DNA of 64,000 nucleotides, taken from Halocalculus aciditolerans. GTDB taxonomy: Archaea > Halobacteriota > Halobacteria > Halobacteriales > Halobacteriaceae. A program made the position numbers and the translations under genes. Positions 10,583-46,396 of the stretch are shown here, in pieces; the first letter of the stretch is position 1; every line of letters starts with the position of its first letter. Location: positions 124,001 to 188,000 of the forward strand of contig NZ_BMPG01000004.1 of the NCBI RefSeq assembly GCF_014647475.1. Reading direction: 5' to 3'. The notes under the pieces are model-generated. The model made no database searches. It had not been told where the DNA came from and saw only the letters and a program-made list of their open reading frames with translations.

Positions 10583-11542
10583 CTAGAAGGCGTCGCCGAG
10601 CAGGTCGACGGCGGTCGCGCGGTCGGGGCCGAGCGGCGAGCCCGCGACGACGCCGTCGAGATGTTCGCGCAGCGCCGCGATTCGCGCTTCCACTTCTTCG
10701 GGCGTGCCAGCGATGCTGAACGCGTCGAGCATCGCGTCGCTCACCGCGTCGAACGCGTCCGTGAACGCGCCCGCTTCGATGGCGTCGCCGATGTCGCTCG
10801 CGCGCTCGCGGTCGATGCCGTGCCGGTCGAGCACCGGCGGTTCCGCGCCCGCCGCGATGAACGCGACCGGCGGCCGCGCGGCCTCGCGCGCCGCCGCGCC
10901 GTCCTCGGCGACGCTCACCGACGCGAACGCCGCCGACGTGAACTCGCTCGGCTCCTCGCGCTCGGCGCGGCCTTCGGCGATGCGGTCGGCCGCCCACGCC
11001 GCGTCGTCCGGGTGGCTCGCGTTCACAAGCACGCCGTCCGCGCGCTTCCCCGCCATCCGCAGCATGTGCGGGCCCTGCCCGCCGACGAACACCGGCACGT
11101 CGCCGACCGCGTAGTTCAACCCCGCGTCCCGCGCGGTGAACGTCCCGTCGTGGTCCACGCGCTCGCCCGCCCAGAGGTCGCGCGCCACCTCGAACGACTC
11201 CAGCACGCGGCGGAGCGGGCGCTCGCGCTCCACCCCGAGATTCTGCAGCGTCGACGCGTCGCCCGCCCCCACGCCGAACACCGCACGCCCGCCGGAGAGC
11301 TCGTCGAGCGTCGCCACCTGCGACGCGAGTTTCACCGGGTGAGTCTCGTAGGGGTTCGCGACACCCGGGCCGAGTCGAATTGACTCGGTGGCTGCGGCCG
11401 CCCGCGTCAACGCCGCGAACGGGTCGCGGTTGTTGTAGTGGCAGGACGCGAAGACGTGGTCGAAGCCCGCGGCCTCCGCGCGAGCCGCGAGGGCGGCGAC
11501 CTCCTCGACCGGCACCTCCGGCGTGAGTTCGACGCCCTTCAT
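10583..11542 (-). CDS. mer: F420-dependent methylene-H4MPT reductase-like (LLM) oxidoreductase
   Basis: 319 residues of the luciferase-like F420-binding TIM barrel. Motifs include GFDHVFASCHYNNRDPFAAL, the LGPGVANPYETHPVKLASQVATLDEL stretch and GRAVFGVGAGD, which closely match archaeal 5,10-methylenetetrahydromethanopterin reductase annotation. In haloarchaea the carbon carrier is a folate, so the substrate is inferred. The ATG overlaps the cofE stop by 4 bp (ATGA), so cofE and mer are translationally coupled. This pairing supports F420 as the cofactor. Confidence 0.88.
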   Translation of the reverse strand: MKGVELTPEVPVEEVAALAARAEAAGFDHVFASCHYNNRDPFAALTRAAAATESIRLGPGVANPYETHPVKLASQVATLDELSGGRAVFGVGAGDASTLQNLGVERERPLRRVLESFEVARDLWAGERVDHDGTFTARDAGLNYAVGDVPVFVGGQGPHMLRMAGKRADGVLVNASHPDDAAWAADRIAEGRAEREEPSEFTSAAFASVSVAEDGAAAREAARPPVAFIAAGAEPPVLDRHGIDRERASDIGDAIEAGAFTDAFDAVSDAMLDAFSIAGTPEEVEARIAALREHLDGVVAGSPLGPDRATAVDLLGDAF

Positions 11543-12297
11543 CGGTCGAACTCCCACTCGCGGAGCGCCTGCCGCACGAAGTCGCCGTCGAGTTCCCGAA
11601 AGAGGTTGTCGCTCCCGTCGTGGTCGCCGAAGGCCCAGTCCCGCACGACGACGACGGGGTCGCCGCCGTCGCCCTCCCCAGTGACGAGGTTCGCCGCCGA
11701 CGCCAGTTCGTCCACGACGGATTCGACGGTGACGGCGAGTTCGTGGCCGTCGCGGTCCGTCTCTCCGCGCCAATCCCGGGATGCGGAGATACCCGCCCAG
11801 CCGATGGCGACGCCGCGCTGGCCGTGGCGGAACGGCCGCCCGCACGTGTCGGTCACGACCACGGCGACGTCCGCGTCGATTCCCTCCCGGATTCGTTCGG
11901 CGCTCTCCGACGGGCGCTCGGGGAGGAGGAGGAGATCCGCGCCGCCGGTGTTCGACCGGTCGATACCGGCGTTCACGCCGACGTGTCCGAACCGCGTCTC
12001 CGTGAGGAGGAACGGCGCTTCGATGGCGAGCTCCATCGACTCCTCTAACACGGCTTGGGCGAACCGCGGGTCCTTCTCGTCGCCCGTAACCTCCTCGAGG
12101 CGCGCGGCGATCTCGCGGGCGCGCGGGCTCGGCGGGAAGTCGTCGAGGGCGTACGCGCGGCCCTCCGCCTTCGAGACGACGGTGCTGGCGACGCAGAGTA
12201 CGTCGCCGTCGTGGACGTCCCCGTGCTCCTCGATGAGCGCGGCGAGGTCGTCGCCAGCGTCGATTTCGGGGAGCCCGGGAACCGCGTTCACGTACAT
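11539..12297 (-). CDS. cofE: Coenzyme F420-0:L-glutamate ligase
   Basis: 252 residues, the usual CofE length. It adds the glutamate tail to F420-0 using GTP. Recognisable parts are the N-terminal VPGLPEIDAGDDLAALI, LCVASTVVSKAEGR near residues 35-48, the NAGIDRSN motif near 110 and the DTCGRPFRHGQ metal/nucleotide loop near 150. The start ATG (MYVNAVPGLP) is chosen over the long upstream extension, which overlaps the divergent Nudix fusion gene. It is the first gene of the cofE-mer operon. Confidence 0.93.
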   Translation of the reverse strand: MYVNAVPGLPEIDAGDDLAALIEEHGDVHDGDVLCVASTVVSKAEGRAYALDDFPPSPRAREIAARLEEVTGDEKDPRFAQAVLEESMELAIEAPFLLTETRFGHVGVNAGIDRSNTGGADLLLLPERPSESAERIREGIDADVAVVVTDTCGRPFRHGQRGVAIGWAGISASRDWRGETDRDGHELAVTVESVVDELASAANLVTGEGDGGDPVVVVRDWAFGDHDGSDNLFRELDGDFVRQALREWEFDR

Positions 12298-40484: not shown

Positions 40485-40547
40485 CACTCCTACCCACTCA
40501 CGCGAACGGTAAACGTTTTCCCGAGCGCGCGGCGAGGTAGAGGTACT

Positions 40548-40620
40548 GGGTCCGTGGTCTAGTGGTTATGACGCTTCCCTTACAAGGAAGAGGTCGGTGG
40601 TTCAAATCCGCCCGGACCCA
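40548..40620 (+). tRNA. tRNA-Val (UAC)
   Basis: 73 nt. The acceptor stem GGGTCCG pairs with CGGACCC and the discriminator is A. The anticodon arm is CTTCC-CTTACAA-GGAAG with anticodon TAC. The T arm is GGTGG-TTCAAAT-CCGCC. CCA is not encoded. There is no intron. A second copy of the last 24 nt lies 98 bp downstream. Confidence 0.95.
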
Positions 40621-40650
40621 TCCTGCGACGAACGAACGTGAGGAGCGGAT

Positions 40651-40718
40651 GGTCCGCGGATTTGAAGCAGGGAGTGGAGCGAAGCGGAACGACCGTGGTT
40701 CAAATCCGCCCGGACCCA
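40651..40718 (+). repeat. tRNA-Val 3'-end copy within an inverted repeat
   Basis: 40695-40718 is a perfect 24-bp copy of the tRNA-Val 3' end (40597-40620). Its TTCAAATCCGCCCGGACC (40699-40716) also pairs with GGTCCGCGGATTTGAA at 40651-40666, leaving a 2-nt bulge. It may be the far attachment site of a lost integrated element. Confidence 0.65.
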
Positions 40719-40897
40719 TGAGCATTTTCGACGAGCGAAGCGAGGAGAAAACGCGCAATGGAGGACGGATTTGAACTCGGGAGCGACTTCGCCGCGACCA
40801 AAGTTCACATCCGCCCAATCCACTTCTGACGAACTGCGTCGACGGCCAGAGAGAGTATCGAGAAGGTCGGAGGTAGTGCGTCGGTGAGCGGGCGGCG

Positions 40898-41215: not shown

Positions 41216-41289
41216 GCCGCCTTAGCTCAGACTGGGAGAGCACTCGACTGAAGATCGAGCTGTCCCCGGTTCAAATCCGGGAGGCGGCA
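41216..41289 (+). tRNA. tRNA-Phe (GAA)
   Basis: 74 nt. The acceptor GCCGCCT pairs with AGGCGGC, discriminator A. The D arm is GCTC...GAGC. The anticodon arm is CTCGA-CTGAAGA-TCGAG with anticodon GAA. The T arm is CCCGG-TTCAAAT-CCGGG. Its 3' end is the left attachment site of the integrated element, and the gene remains intact. Confidence 0.96.
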
Positions 41290-41290
41290 T
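41268..41290 (+). repeat. attL of the integrated element
   Basis: GGTTCAAATCCGGGAGGCGG plus CAT (23 bp) covers the T loop to the 3' end of tRNA-Phe and is repeated exactly at 46374-46396. Confidence 0.9.
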
Positions 41291-41646
41291 CCTGCTACCG
41301 GTCGATTGATGACCGAGAGATGTGACGCCGTCCTGCGATTCGGATTCGCCTCGTGCGAAGGCAACCGGTCACTGGACGCACCCCGTCACTTCCGGCGTTC
41401 TGCAATTACCGAAACGTATCGGGGAACCTAGAGTCTTTCGGCCCGAAGTCGCGTACTGCTGTAAATCGAGGGCACAAGCCTTGAGCGGCGTGTTTTCTTT
41501 TTAAGAGCGCGACGAACTCGCTCCACAGAGGGAGGCCACCCCGACTCCGAAAATATGCCTGCTCTGAAACCAGACATATGCGCTCGCTGGTCAGTGAGAG
41601 ACTTCACCGAGTGCGCCTCGCATCTCGGAAACAACCTAGTGGAACT
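41291..41646. other. Left end of the element, no gene
   Basis: About 450 bp separate attL from the first element gene. The stretch before repeat copy A shows no supported gene on either strand. It includes TTTTCTTTTTAAGAGCG near 41489, a possible promoter or terminator. Confidence 0.4.
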
Positions 41647-41706
41647 CGCCCGATTGTCATAGGATTGTATGGAGGGGTAGGAGACAGCGGAATAGCACAG
41701 GTGGGG
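41647..41706 (+). repeat. Bipartite element repeat, copy A
   Basis: Half 1 at 41647-41676 (begins CGCCCGATTGTCATAGGATT), then half 2 at 41683-41706 (GACAGCGGAATAGCACAGGT plus GGGG). It lies 38 bp before the AT-rich gene. Half 1 is 29/30 identical to copy B and its first 25 bp are identical to copy C. Confidence 0.85.
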
Positions 41707-41743
41707 GAAAGTAACTTGATGGTCACTCTACTTGGACTGAACA

Positions 41744-43072
41744 ATGGCAGGGTGGTTGTCAAATCAAAGGGGAATATGGCTTGTAAGAATTGCAATGGCC
41801 AACTCGATTGTTTCATTTACATCCTTACAACTATTCAATGAATTTTCTAATAACGCCCAATCATCAATCACATTTAGTTTATTGACTGGTGTTATATCTG
41901 GATCTATATTAATTATCTTTGTTTGGTCTATACTCCCTCAAGACGGACCACCATTCAAAAAGCCCGAAAACGAAGTAGATTTTCACACACCTCAAGAGAC
42001 GTGGATGGGTAGCGAACTAATGGTTGATTTAGGATTCTATTATATTTCTTGGTATTTTACAGTTCCATTTTTTGCGGCCTTTGGTGCAGTTACATTCTCA
42101 ATTTTTACCATTGGGTGGCTTGGACCGGTTCTCGGTGCTGTAATTGGAGGAGTGATTGCGGATTACCGTATTTGGAATTTCAAAATACCAAAATTATTTC
42201 CTGACGAATTTCTTGATGAATATGAAGGAGAAATATCATCACCACTAAAACGAATGAGAAATGCAGTAATATCTATCATTATCGGTATAGCGGTCTCTAT
42301 CGTAGCCGGCGAATTAACAAAAAGCGGATTTAGTGCGACAATTAATAAGATTCTTGAATCATCAAATGAAATATCGTTTGATCCGTCACTGTTTGGCGTG
42401 ATTTTCTTGACTACATCTGTATTTATTGGGGGAATTGCGCTCGGTACAATCGCTGGTTATCTGCTTGCAGTATTGTTGACAGATTTGTATAAAGAAGGGT
42501 TCGCGCCTCATCCAATTCAGGGAACCTCCTTGGCTAATGTTGCTAAATATTATGACATAAAATTAGTAAAGGCTTGGTTCTTATATTACATAGTATGTTT
42601 ATGTAACCATATGTTTGATAATGAGGATATGATTAAATCAAAGCAGAATCATATAAGAGGATTAACAGTAAAATTAATTTCGATAATAGTCGTTCCTTTG
42701 GTTTCTTTTGGGATTATAACATTTTATTTCAGTGAATATTATATCTTCAACCCATTTCTTATTGAAGCGATTCTAAAACCTCTAAATCCATTACCATCTT
42801 TCTTGATAGGTTTGTTTATGTGGGCTGCATTACTAATACCTGTGTTGATTTATCAAGCCAATTCGTTTATGTGGCCGGGACTTAAGATAGGAGAGAAGTT
42901 CTTGTCTATAAAAATCACTTTGTTCGTATCATTAGTTTATACCTTCATTTTTCCGTTCCCAGCATTTGCATCACTTATAATAATGTATATATTATTTAAA
43001 ATACATACGTTAGATGAGGAGGTTGAGTTTAGGTTGGTTCTCAATATGAATTGGAAAGAAATGCCCTTGTGA
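41744..43072 (+). CDS. AT-rich unknown polytopic membrane protein
   Basis: 442 residues with nine or ten hydrophobic segments, roughly at 41-64, 98-121, 122-139, 174-190, 215-245, 277-289, 308-329, 351-370 and 390-420. A soluble, charged loop lies at 141-172 (YRIWNFKIPKLFPDEFLDEY). Base composition (about 35% GC by eye) and use of ATA, TTA and AGA codons are unlike anything else in the window, so recent transfer from a low-GC source is likely. No transporter or enzyme motif is recognised. It is flanked by direct copies A and B of the bipartite repeat, like a cassette. Confidence 0.85.
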   Translation: MAGWLSNQRGIWLVRIAMANSIVSFTSLQLFNEFSNNAQSSITFSLLTGVISGSILIIFVWSILPQDGPPFKKPENEVDFHTPQETWMGSELMVDLGFYYISWYFTVPFFAAFGAVTFSIFTIGWLGPVLGAVIGGVIADYRIWNFKIPKLFPDEFLDEYEGEISSPLKRMRNAVISIIIGIAVSIVAGELTKSGFSATINKILESSNEISFDPSLFGVIFLTTSVFIGGIALGTIAGYLLAVLLTDLYKEGFAPHPIQGTSLANVAKYYDIKLVKAWFLYYIVCLCNHMFDNEDMIKSKQNHIRGLTVKLISIIVVPLVSFGIITFYFSEYYIFNPFLIEAILKPLNPLPSFLIGLFMWAALLIPVLIYQANSFMWPGLKIGEKFLSIKITLFVSLVYTFIFPFPAFASLIIMYILFKIHTLDEEVEFRLVLNMNWKEMPL

Positions 43073-43095
43073 AACTTTCCAACCGGACAATTGAG

Positions 43096-43201
43096 CGCCC
43101 GATTGTCATAGGATTATATGGAGGGATTGGACAAGTGATGCCGTATATAGAAAACACCTCGTGTACCTCGGCCGATGACCGACGGGATAACACAGGTGGG
43201 G
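43096..43201 (+). repeat. Bipartite element repeat, copy B
   Basis: Half 1 at 43096-43125 (one difference from copy A) and half 2 at 43181-43201 (GACGGGATAACACAGGTGGGG), with a 55-bp spacer containing TATATAGAAAACACC. It starts 24 bp after the AT-rich gene and ends 27 bp before the 3' end of the primase gene. Confidence 0.85.
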
Positions 43202-43227
43202 TGTGAAGTGAATACACCCTCGAACAC

Positions 43228-44175
43228 CTACACTTTCTCGACGTACCCTCCTCCGAAGGTGTCGCTGTTGGTTCGGCAGACCTTCCGTATGGTCATCTCC
43301 CCATACGTGGCTCCGTCAGAAGAGTGTACCTCATCCCACTTCTGTCGCATCCGCCCAGAGGCTCGGAAACACTCGTCCATCAACTGCTGGTCACCCTTGC
43401 ACCAGTAGTAGAGTTGCTTCACGAAGGCCATATCTGCCTCCGATGCAGACGGTCGCCCTTCATCGCTCCCTTGCCACAGTCGAAGTACCTCTTGGTCGAC
43501 GTCCCACTCGCTGTGCTTGACGCAGGCTCGGATGGTTCGCCGTACCTGCTCGGGAGTCGCATCCGTCTCCTCTCCGTCGAACTCCTGTTCACTCACAGGC
43601 TTCTGCTGGCTCGTGAAGGAGAACTTCTGGCATTCGGGGAGATAGTCGCCCTGCACCTCTCCGACGACTGTGGGCCTGCTCTCGACCGAGGTGGAGCCGT
43701 CGTACACGTCTCCCGTGAGGACGAAGTACTGCCCATCGTCGTACACTTCGAGGTGTCCTGCCTCGGATAAGTTGCCTCGATGCTTGTGGTCATCCGAGTG
43801 GTCACCTTCTGCGATGACGTGTAGCCCTGCCCCTGAACTCGATACCTCGGTGTAGGAGTCGAGCAGTCGCACGATTCCGAGTGCCTCGCTAGTAAACTCG
43901 CCGTCTACCTTCACATCATCGAGGTCGAAGCCGATGAAGGGACCACTCTCGGTGAAGACGAAGGCTACCTCTCCACCGAGTTGCTCGGCCTTGTCTCGCG
44001 CCTCGGTGAAGGTGAGCAGATTCACCAACTTCTGCCACCCCTTCGACGGAGCGACCGGCTTCTTGTCCTGTGTCACGAGCCACTGGTCGTGGTCTTTCAG
44101 CCGACTGGGGAAACGGTCACCACAACCTGTGTTATCCTCGCTGTCCTGCTGGAAGGTGAAGTCGAAGCGACTCAT
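43228..44175 (-). CDS. Archaeo-eukaryotic type primase-polymerase (PrimPol)
   Basis: 315 residues. The AEP core is visible: motif 1 FIGFDLDDV (residues 80-88, catalytic acids), motif 2 SSSGAGLHV (His 119) and motif 3 region VYDDGQYFVLTGD near 144-156. The C-terminal part (LRLWQGSDEGRPSASEADMAFVKQL, then CFRASGRMRQKWDE) matches the helix bundle found in NrS-1-like and plasmid PrimPols. There is no helicase domain. It should prime or copy the element's DNA. Its ATG overlaps the upstream gene's stop by 4 bp. Confidence 0.85.
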   Translation of the reverse strand: MSRFDFTFQQDSEDNTGCGDRFPSRLKDHDQWLVTQDKKPVAPSKGWQKLVNLLTFTEARDKAEQLGGEVAFVFTESGPFIGFDLDDVKVDGEFTSEALGIVRLLDSYTEVSSSGAGLHVIAEGDHSDDHKHRGNLSEAGHLEVYDDGQYFVLTGDVYDGSTSVESRPTVVGEVQGDYLPECQKFSFTSQQKPVSEQEFDGEETDATPEQVRRTIRACVKHSEWDVDQEVLRLWQGSDEGRPSASEADMAFVKQLYYWCKGDQQLMDECFRASGRMRQKWDEVHSSDGATYGEMTIRKVCRTNSDTFGGGYVEKV

Positions 44176-44732
44176 CGGCCCTCACCTCCGTACTTGTCCC
44201 ACACGTACTTGACCAACTGCTCGCCATCTACATCGAGCATCTCCTCGGCTACGTCTACCAGATAGGAGTCTTTCACTTCCTCCACATCGTCGTACTTGTA
44301 GAGGGTGGCGAAGCCGAGTGCGGCTCCGTCGATGCCCTCGTAGAAGCGGCTAAAGCCTTGGAGTGGCTCTCGAATCACGCGACTGCGGGCCTGTTCTTTC
44401 ACGAGCGTCTCGCTCTCGGCTTGGGAGAGGATGACACTGGCTCGTCGGTGGGTGAAGACGTGTTCCTGTCGCACACGCTGGCCGTCCCATCCCTCGTAGG
44501 TATGGCCGCGACCGTGATGGAGGACGAAGAACCGTTCGTACCGTTCGGTGTTCCACGCCTCCCGTGCGTAGAACGTCGTACGAGCCTTCGAGCAGGCTGG
44601 AAAGGTCGGCTGGAAGTCGTACTGATGCTTGTCCTTCTGCACCTCGTCCCACGACTTCGAGCCTGTGTCGAGTCGCTCCTCTAACGCGATGGGTTGCCCT
44701 CCATCGGTTTCTGGTCCGTCCTTGCTACTCAT
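44172..44732 (-). CDS. Element protein of unknown function, 186 residues
   Basis: Soluble protein starting MSSKDGPETDGGQPIALEER, then YDFQPTFPACSKARTTFYAREAWNTERYERFFVLHHGRGHTYEG, rich in His, Arg and aromatic residues, and ending in an acidic helix. No family is recognised. It overlaps both neighbours (8 bp with the 60-residue gene upstream, 4 bp with the PrimPol), so all three are translated from one mRNA and likely act together in replication. Confidence 0.72.
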   Translation of the reverse strand: MSSKDGPETDGGQPIALEERLDTGSKSWDEVQKDKHQYDFQPTFPACSKARTTFYAREAWNTERYERFFVLHHGRGHTYEGWDGQRVRQEHVFTHRRASVILSQAESETLVKEQARSRVIREPLQGFSRFYEGIDGAALGFATLYKYDDVEEVKDSYLVDVAEEMLDVDGEQLVKYVWDKYGGEGR

Positions 44733-44907
44733 CCTTGGAACCTCCCATACTGGTGATGGGCTTCCATCCGACGAGTCGCTGGATAGCCCTCTCCCGATAA
44801 CAGGCCATCCTGTTTTTGAGAGTGGGTGTTTCTTTGTCCACATCCACGCCCTCCTCGGACGCTTCCCTGTCTTCCTGATTGCCAGAGTCGTTGCTGTTCG
44901 TTGGCAT
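44725..44907 (-). CDS. Element microprotein, 60 residues
   Basis: MPTNSNDSGNQEDREASEEG, an acidic disordered start, then a basic helix-rich end TLKNRMACYRERAIQRLVGW. The size and charge split would suit a DNA-binding regulator or primase cofactor, but no motif is certain. First gene of the operon; overlap with the next gene supports its translation. Confidence 0.55.
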   Translation of the reverse strand: MPTNSNDSGNQEDREASEEGVDVDKETPTLKNRMACYRERAIQRLVGWKPITSMGGSKDE

Positions 44908-45178
44908 ATCTGGTCACCACGCAAGTCAGACCCATCGCTCAAGAGCCGTCCTGCACAGTTCTACGACTGGCAGACCCACTGCTCAGACCACCGTCTACAC
45001 AGACACCCTCAGCAGGAGAAGTGGCTACTCAGCGAGCGATACGTTTCTGACTTCCTTACACTATTGTTCGGGAGATTAGTACTTAAAGGTGGCGACCAAT
45101 TCTATCCCTGTTTTCTGGACACTGATTCGTTATTGGACGCTTTCTCTAGACGAACGTGGACAGCACATCACTCTTAAA
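44908..45178. other. Element spacer upstream of replication operon
   Basis: No supported gene. It is AT-richer than the chromosome (for example AGTACTTAAAGGTGG near 45080 and CTTAAACC near 45174). It should hold the operon promoter and perhaps the origin. Repeat copy C closes it on the right. Confidence 0.4.
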
Positions 45179-45269
45179 CCCCACTGTGTTATCCCTGCTG
45201 TCTGTCATACAAGCGAAGGGTGTTTACCACTCCCTTCACCCTCTCATACAATCCTATGACAATCGGGCG
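45179..45269 (-). repeat. Bipartite element repeat, copy C (inverted)
   Basis: On the minus strand, half 1 is 45269-45245 (25 bp identical to copy A) and half 2 is 45202-45179 (GACAGCAGGGATAACACAGT plus GGGG). It begins directly after the integrase stop codon. The spacer contains GAAGGG...CCCTTC, a small hairpin. Confidence 0.85.
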
Positions 45270-45270
45270 G

Positions 45271-46284
45271 TCACATCGAGTCGAGGTACTCCCTCCGTTG
45301 CTCCATCTTCTCCTCCTCGGTCAGTTGGGAGTAGTGCTTTTCGAGCGTTTCAGGCGAGGAGTTCACACGGTCGGACACCACCTGCTTGGGCACGTCGTTT
45401 CGTAGCAGGTGGGTGATGGCTCCCCTCCGAACGTCGTGCGGTGACACGCTGGACGGACACTTGCTCGCGTGGGTGTAGGTAGCCGCCTCACAGGAGTTCG
45501 GGTCACGACCGTGCGGGCACTCCTGACCGTAGGCACACGGACGAGTCACGGCATACACCATCTCCCGAATCTTCGACCGGTGCATCCGACCGTACCGAGT
45601 CGTGAACAGTGGTTCTCGCCCGTAGTCGTCGGTCACGTCGTCACGAGTCACGGTGACGTAGTCCTGCAACACCTCGCAGACGTCTTCCGAGAGGGCACAG
45701 ATACGCTCGCCCGACTGTTTGTTCTTCAGGTTGGTTTCGGTATCGGGCCGATGGCGTATTTCGAGTGCCTGCTCCTCTGCATCGAAGTCAGAGACATCGA
45801 GGGAGTGTGCGGCTCCCATCCGACAACCAGTATGCCACAGCACGGTGAGGAGTGCGTGTCGTTTCGAGGCGTACTCGTACTTCCCGAGGTAGTTGAGGAC
45901 TTGCTCTGCCCTCTCCGCTTCGAGGATGCTGTCACTGACCGCTTCCTCGTCTTCGACCGAAGGAATGAGCATCTTGTCGTGCAAGCCCTGCTCGACGCCG
46001 TCGATGGATTCGAGGAACTTCACGAACACTCGCAGGGTCGAGAGTTGTCCCTTGAGAGTGATGGTTTTCAGGTCGCCGTCCTCCTTGCGCCAGAGCCGGT
46101 ACTCGTGGAGTGAGCGGGCCGTGAGTTCGTTGAGTTTCGTGATGCTCTCCTGCTCGCACCACTTCACGAACGGCTTGAGACGGTAGTGATAGCCCTGTAG
46201 CGTTGCTTCTGCAACCTCGTCACGCCGTTGTGCGAGGAACATCTCTTTCGCTTCTGCGGGAGCGATGGGTTCGAGTTCTGCCAT
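45271..46284 (-). CDS. Tyrosine recombinase / integrase
   Basis: 337 residues from the ATG at 46284, which has GGAGAG 6 nt upstream; a TTG 17 codons earlier is less likely. N-terminal SAM-like domain residues 1-100 (YHYRLKPFVKWCEQESITKLNEL). Catalytic core: Arg in HTGCRMGAAHSLDV near 160, HxxR in SPHDVRRGAITHLL near 290 and Tyr in LEKHYSQLTEEEK near 320. An insert with several Cys and His (CAYGQECPHGRD...CPSS) near 250-280 may bind zinc. The gene lies 90 bp from attR. Confidence 0.92.
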   Translation of the reverse strand: MAELEPIAPAEAKEMFLAQRRDEVAEATLQGYHYRLKPFVKWCEQESITKLNELTARSLHEYRLWRKEDGDLKTITLKGQLSTLRVFVKFLESIDGVEQGLHDKMLIPSVEDEEAVSDSILEAERAEQVLNYLGKYEYASKRHALLTVLWHTGCRMGAAHSLDVSDFDAEEQALEIRHRPDTETNLKNKQSGERICALSEDVCEVLQDYVTVTRDDVTDDYGREPLFTTRYGRMHRSKIREMVYAVTRPCAYGQECPHGRDPNSCEAATYTHASKCPSSVSPHDVRRGAITHLLRNDVPKQVVSDRVNSSPETLEKHYSQLTEEEKMEQRREYLDSM

Positions 46285-46373
46285 TGTTTGCTCTCCGCAG
46301 AACACCGGATTGTGGGTCGGGGAAGCGTCGTCCAATCGCCCGACAGCACGTTATTTTCGCGTCGTCTTCCCGA

Positions 46374-46396
46374 GGTTCAAATCCGGGAGGCGGCAT
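46374..46396 (+). repeat. attR of the integrated element
   Basis: Exact 23-bp copy of attL. Beyond it the chromosome resumes with spacer sequence containing a T-arm-like inverted repeat (46436-46475). Confidence 0.9.

Follow-up and report, generated by a model that had tools for sequence, protein, structure and literature searches.

A 5.1-kb element occupies a tRNA-Phe gene of the haloarchaeon Halocalculus aciditolerans. It is a real, exact insertion that is absent from three other genomes (loci L126, L122 and L121). The stretch of DNA that we analysed, hereafter the window, comprises 64,000 nucleotides of contig NZ_BMPG01000004.1 (positions 124,001 to 188,000), and positions given below count from its first letter. 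The element encodes a tyrosine integrase, a protein that we call ORF2, a helicase-less primase-polymerase (PrimPol) and one AT-rich cargo gene, and it carries several copies of a composite repeat, R (Table 1). As judged from alignments with related elements, R marks the boundaries of the modules, namely the left end, RNase HI, cargo, PrimPol and integrase. From this architecture, which is directly evident, we infer a function for R. We lean slightly towards a minimal integrative replicon, i.e. a cryptic integrative plasmid, in which the R sites serve replication by ORF2 and PrimPol and also provide seams for module exchange. The element is one of a family of very small mobile elements, apparently not yet described, that share one replication kit and one repeated signal and carry mostly different passenger genes.

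Insertion site and limits of the element

The direct repeat GGTTCAAATCCGGGAGGCGGCAT bounds the element on both sides without a mismatch, as an earlier note on this DNA had claimed, and consists of the last 22 bp of the tRNA-Phe gene plus one base. The note also proposed a comparison with strains in which the tRNA-Phe site is empty. Three family genomes (L126, L122 and L121) have such a site: there, tRNA-Phe joins directly to the sequence found past attR in the window, with 91-95% identity over 120-133 nt. The insertion is therefore precise. With a tRNA 3'-end repeat at both ends, an integrase within and an empty site in relatives, this is a tRNA-targeting integrative element, and the note's description of a compact, tRNA-integrated 5.1-kb element with a PrimPol and a single cargo gene is borne out.

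The integrase was correctly placed beside attR in the same note and contains Phage_integrase (4e-12) and Phage_int_SAM_1 (1e-8) domains. It is intact, unlike in SSV-type (suicidal) elements, where the integrase gene is split on integration. At the opposite side, the non-coding left end is conserved among relatives, across tRNA-Phe and tRNA-Tyr elements, and contains inverted-repeat-like blocks; it is a candidate origin.

Outside the element, the 3'-end sequence of a tRNA-Val gene (40547-40623), GGTTCAAATCCGCCCGGACCCAT, occurs again at 40697, a possible trace of another integration (40547-40790).

Table 1. Features of the element and its target gene in the window
Feature	Position	Strand	Evidence
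tRNA-Phe gene, integration target	41216-41289	+	ARAGORN, Rfam
attL, 23-bp repeat	41268-41290	+	identical to 46374-46396
Non-coding left end, candidate origin region	41291-41646	no strand	alignment of relatives
R1, short type (boxA 41647-41671, boxB 41688-41706)	41647-41706	+	repeat search/alignment
Cargo gene, 442 aa, at least 7 hydrophobic segments, orphan membrane protein	41744-43072	+	ORF call, GC, genome search
R2, long type (boxA 43096-43120, boxB 43183-43201)	43096-43201	+	repeat search/alignment
PrimPol, 315 aa, AEP domain and helix-bundle domain, no helicase	43228-44175	-	domain and PDB matches
boxB-only copy, inside the 5' end of PrimPol coding sequence	44120-44145	-	repeat search, frame comparison
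ORF2 core, 187 aa, no known family	44172-44735	-	ORF call, domain searches
~112-nt insertion splitting ancestral ORF2, limits approximate	44724-44836	-	alignment with four relatives
ORF1, 60 aa, first 24 aa equivalent to the N-terminus of relatives' ORF2	44725-44907	-	comparison with relatives
R3, integrase/leader type (boxA 45245-45269, boxB 45184-45202)	45184-45269	-	repeat search/alignment
Tyrosine integrase, 338 aa	45271-46287	-	ORF call, domain search
attR, 23-bp repeat	46374-46396	+	repeat identity, empty-site comparison

A stand-alone PrimPol paired with ORF2

ORF2 and PrimPol form the constant core among the element's relatives. PrimPol clearly matches the NrS-1 type (phage NrS-1 polymerase; PF22763; phrog_1829), in which AEP motifs are followed by a helix-bundle domain (HBD). 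It aligns to the NrS-1 HBD (PF22763) at 1e-22 and to solved NrS-1 primase fragments at about 5e-29, in an alignment that spans FDLDDV, SGAGLHV and LEVYDDGQY. The C-terminal helicase domain of the full-length NrS-1 enzyme is missing. Since the 315-aa protein stops after the HBD, the label 'helicase-less' that it had been given is right, and intact close relatives are of similar length (307-314 aa). It further differs from NrS-1 polymerase in being paired with ORF2 and in residing in an archaeal integrative element.

ORF2 had no match in Pfam, NCBIfam or PHROG and no homologue among plasmid or phage records. It was found in nine of 362 genomes, and only at sites that also bear the compact PrimPol. 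Predicted structures had a pLDDT of 35.6 for ORF2 and 40.3 for the cargo protein.

The earlier note described a three-gene overlapping operon. Three overlapping frames can indeed be read, but in Halobellus (L075), Halosimplex (L076), Halovenus (L062) and G312 (L063) one uninterrupted frame of ~216 aa takes the place of ORF1 and ORF2. Alignment with four relatives revealed that an insertion of ~112 nt shifts the frame in the window and adds a stop. Because this insertion cuts ORF2, the operon is better read as two ancestral genes, of which the first is split. The inserted sequence is single-copy in the genome, and we found no source for it.

Related elements and their cargo

PrimPol relatives of 65-80% identity lie in the same arrangement in several haloarchaeal genera, alongside many remnants. 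The same gene order, for which the note had suggested a search, was found in Halovenus rubra, Halobellus, Halosimplex and G312, with decayed copies elsewhere. The target gene is mostly tRNA-Phe or tRNA-Tyr, and a single remnant was found close to tRNA-Ala. The canonical layout of these elements runs from the tRNA with attL through a non-coding left end of about 350 nt, R, RNase HI, cargo, R, PrimPol, ORF2, leader, R and integrase to attR. The RNase HI gene is present in many relatives and absent from the window element. In L066, L072, L074, L080, L081, L082 and L116, only the C-terminal part of PrimPol is kept, often together with the adjacent R.

The split ORF2, the missing RNase HI and the many remnants among relatives would all fit a decayed copy that has lost the ability to move or replicate. 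We consider this rather unlikely for the window element, as its integrase, PrimPol and ORF2 core are open, its att repeats are perfect and RNase HI may not be essential.

Relatives mostly differ in the gene that fills the slot bounded by the left end or RNase HI on one side and by PrimPol on the other. In the window this is the AT-rich cargo gene already recognised in the note (35.1% GC). Across the elements, cargo genes have 35-53% GC inside loci of 53-67% GC. The window cargo has no homologue in 392 genomes and matches no known defence family (best E-value 0.075). Relatives carry FkbM-type and DUF268 methyltransferases, a sulfatase, an Mrr nuclease, a macro domain, membrane proteins and unknowns; a third methyltransferase-like protein and a sulfatase-like protein were recognised by eye. 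The Mrr nucleases of L066 and L112 are related to each other. Variation in haloarchaeal surface glycans may affect virus sensitivity, as PMC5867893 suggests. A change in the host surface or protection of the host is the probable effect of the cargo, and the family offers orphan genes with a possible action on viruses or the cell surface.

The composite repeat R

R consists of boxA (CGCCCGATTGTCATAGGATTRTATG) and boxB (about ACAGNNGAGANAACACRGNGG), joined by a middle that varies by position (integrase side, tRNA side, PrimPol 3' end, or short type). The window contains three composite copies and one boxB-only copy within PrimPol. The earlier note mentioned neither these nor the RNase HI gene of relatives, and it also missed what is most unusual here, the modules bounded by repeats and the variable cargo slot. 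Searches with boxA gave 25 matches in 17 of 392 genomes, against two for the reversed control, and in the window's own genome boxA is found in this element only. This rules out R as a common host repeat. Searches with boxB alone gave 32 matches, against five for the reversed control, and yielded two further elements, L132 and L150; the other matches that we read look like chance.

Distant elements, whose PrimPols are 36-42% identical, have no boxA and carry boxB on both sides of ORF2-PrimPol. At 28 loci of longer PrimPols, there was one weak boxB match. The boxB in the PrimPol 5' end lies in frame 0 in the near group and in frame 1 in four distant relatives, and is missing near the PrimPol start in one distant relative (L073). 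Since the reading frame differs and the encoded peptides are unrelated, boxB is kept as nucleic acid and not as protein.

The orientation of boxB is polar. Across 12 loci, 23 copies are sense and 5' of PrimPol, 18 are antisense and 3', none is antisense and 5', and two are weak exceptions. Thus 41 of the 43 copies point toward PrimPol and the reversed pattern gives four matches, although these counts are not independent events because the copies share ancestry. A structured RNA was rejected: over 155-210 columns the consensus folds have weak energies of -8 to -24 kcal/mol, and compensatory changes are few. R also has no Rfam match, and we therefore treat it mainly as a DNA site.

In the replicon that we favour, the integrase would excise and insert the element. 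In the circle, ORF2, as initiator or accessory factor, and the helicase-less PrimPol would start DNA synthesis with the assistance of host helicase and polymerase. R, and boxB in particular, would be a polar cis site to which the two proteins bind or at which they prime. The boxB sites would line two replication arms, both of which begin near the att/left-end region and converge on PrimPol. RNase HI, where present, would remove RNA primers or hybrids. We propose boxB as the PrimPol/ORF2 site because HBD PrimPols recognise GTG/GTGG-type template motifs (PMC8718748) and boxB often holds GTGG, frequently at its end. Against this, GTGG is not invariant, boxB is longer than known primase motifs, and boxA is the part that the distant group lacks. 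As a candidate recognition site, the conserved R is directly testable in a group with good genetics.

R or boxB could instead be operator or mRNA-level sites through which an element protein, perhaps ORF2, tunes RNase HI, cargo and ORF2-PrimPol. R does lie directly upstream of RNase HI, the window cargo and ORF2, boxB lies within the PrimPol 5' end, and R copies that abut gene ends could be regulatory. This seems unlikely, given that R2 runs antisense to PrimPol and in L065, L116 and L062 is followed by no gene in its own orientation, and that predicted RNA folding is weak. The TATA-like box of ORF2 also lies well downstream of R3, which rules out R as the main ORF2 promoter.

Module boundaries and mosaicism

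At the R copies of the PrimPol end, homology on the cargo side breaks off exactly where boxA starts: pairs of elements are 22-26% identical up to the base that precedes boxA and 71-79% identical within it. Towards the integrase, comparison of elements of different tRNA type gives ~60% identity in the body of that gene and 96-98% over a stretch made up of its final ~40 nt and the beginning of R. Between the window and L075, these values are about 60% for the body and 94% for the integrase tail with R. The exchange point lies ~45 nt inside the integrase gene. The window and Halovenus elements share 95% identity in the integrase and 73% in PrimPol.

The R copy before the window cargo is a hybrid, in which a tRNA-side left flank is fused to a short-type right half. 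The same junction is found in L113, and in L065 RNase HI is flanked by an R of each type. Such a hybrid is exactly what loss or exchange of RNase HI at R would produce. We infer that modules are exchanged at R, which, as short shared homology at module edges, would be the seam where co-resident elements swap integrase, RNase HI and cargo. A very small element would thereby exchange its cargo at a boundary that is sharp to the nucleotide.

The sharp boxA boundary, the hybrid R in the window and L113, and cargo stop codons within a few bases of boxA (L064, L072 and L076) could also point to an integron-like, site-specific recombination site that captures single cargo genes. Like integron cassettes, the cargo genes are variable single genes that are bounded by a repeat and whose ends abut it, a likeness at the level of sequence boundaries. 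We regard this reading as improbable: no cassette integrase is evident, the exchange point inside the integrase gene is as expected of homologous recombination, and boxB is tied to ORF2-PrimPol, also within PrimPol, even in elements without boxA. Equally improbable is the active form of this idea, in which the integrase, or ORF2/PrimPol-driven copying between R sites, swaps single AT-rich genes. If true, haloarchaea would have integron-like cargo exchange within a replicon of 5 kb, with ORF2 as a new initiator.

A second, C-terminal PrimPol fragment lies between a short-type and a long-type R in Halosimplex (L076:8001-12219), where there is also a second integrase (11176-12219), as if two tandem elements had partly fused. 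PrimPol C-terminal remnants at L076:9047, L109:6826 and L111:7443 are truncated at similar positions and fused to a short-type boxA, which may reflect either common ancestry or a preferred breakpoint.

Relation to known elements

Of the two options raised in the earlier note, a cryptic plasmid or a virus satellite, the cryptic integrative plasmid fits best. A satellite packaged by a helper virus would likewise be small, with an integrase, a PrimPol and no capsid genes, but it is very improbable and lacks positive support, as no viral contig in IMG/VR has a close relative or R, phage records contain no ORF2 and the element has no structural genes. Neither the compact PrimPol nor R was found in IMG/VR, and the viral contigs, phages and plasmids searched held no close relatives of PrimPol, ORF2, cargo or R.

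The plasmids pRN1 and pSSVx (ORF904) are also small archaeal replicons that rely on a PrimPol with an HBD. In these, the PrimPol is fused to a helicase and a wHTH domain; here there is no such fusion, and the element has ORF2, the R repeats and, in many relatives, RNase HI. The small integrated arCOG07809 elements, in the consulted part of PMC4158269, are similar in being archaeal, encoding a PrimPol-related protein and lacking capsid genes. They differ in encoding primase-helicase-HTH-Zn finger proteins and endonucleases, and that part describes no repeat-bounded modules. The pL6-family plasmids and betapleolipovirus-like elements are small cryptic haloarchaeal replicons too, but their replicases are of the Rep-Arvir/DUF7845 type or related (PMC13107129, PMC11431627) and not PrimPols. 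Among the genes of our element there is no DUF7845 or other rolling-circle Rep.

The note's impression that the combination is little described holds for the family itself, as we found no description of it, of ORF2 or of the repeat-bounded modules in the open-access literature. Small PrimPol elements of archaeal genomes are known in kind (PMC4158269). With an integrase, ORF2, a helicase-less PrimPol, often RNase HI, and one cargo gene, the family represents an archaeal mobile replicon close to the minimal set and illustrates the construction and reassortment of a minimal genetic parasite.

One locus with a weak boxA match, L108, was set aside as a different small element. It has a DUF7845 (Rep-Arvir type) gene near tRNA-Val (L108:7866-9494) and a related integrase (39%).
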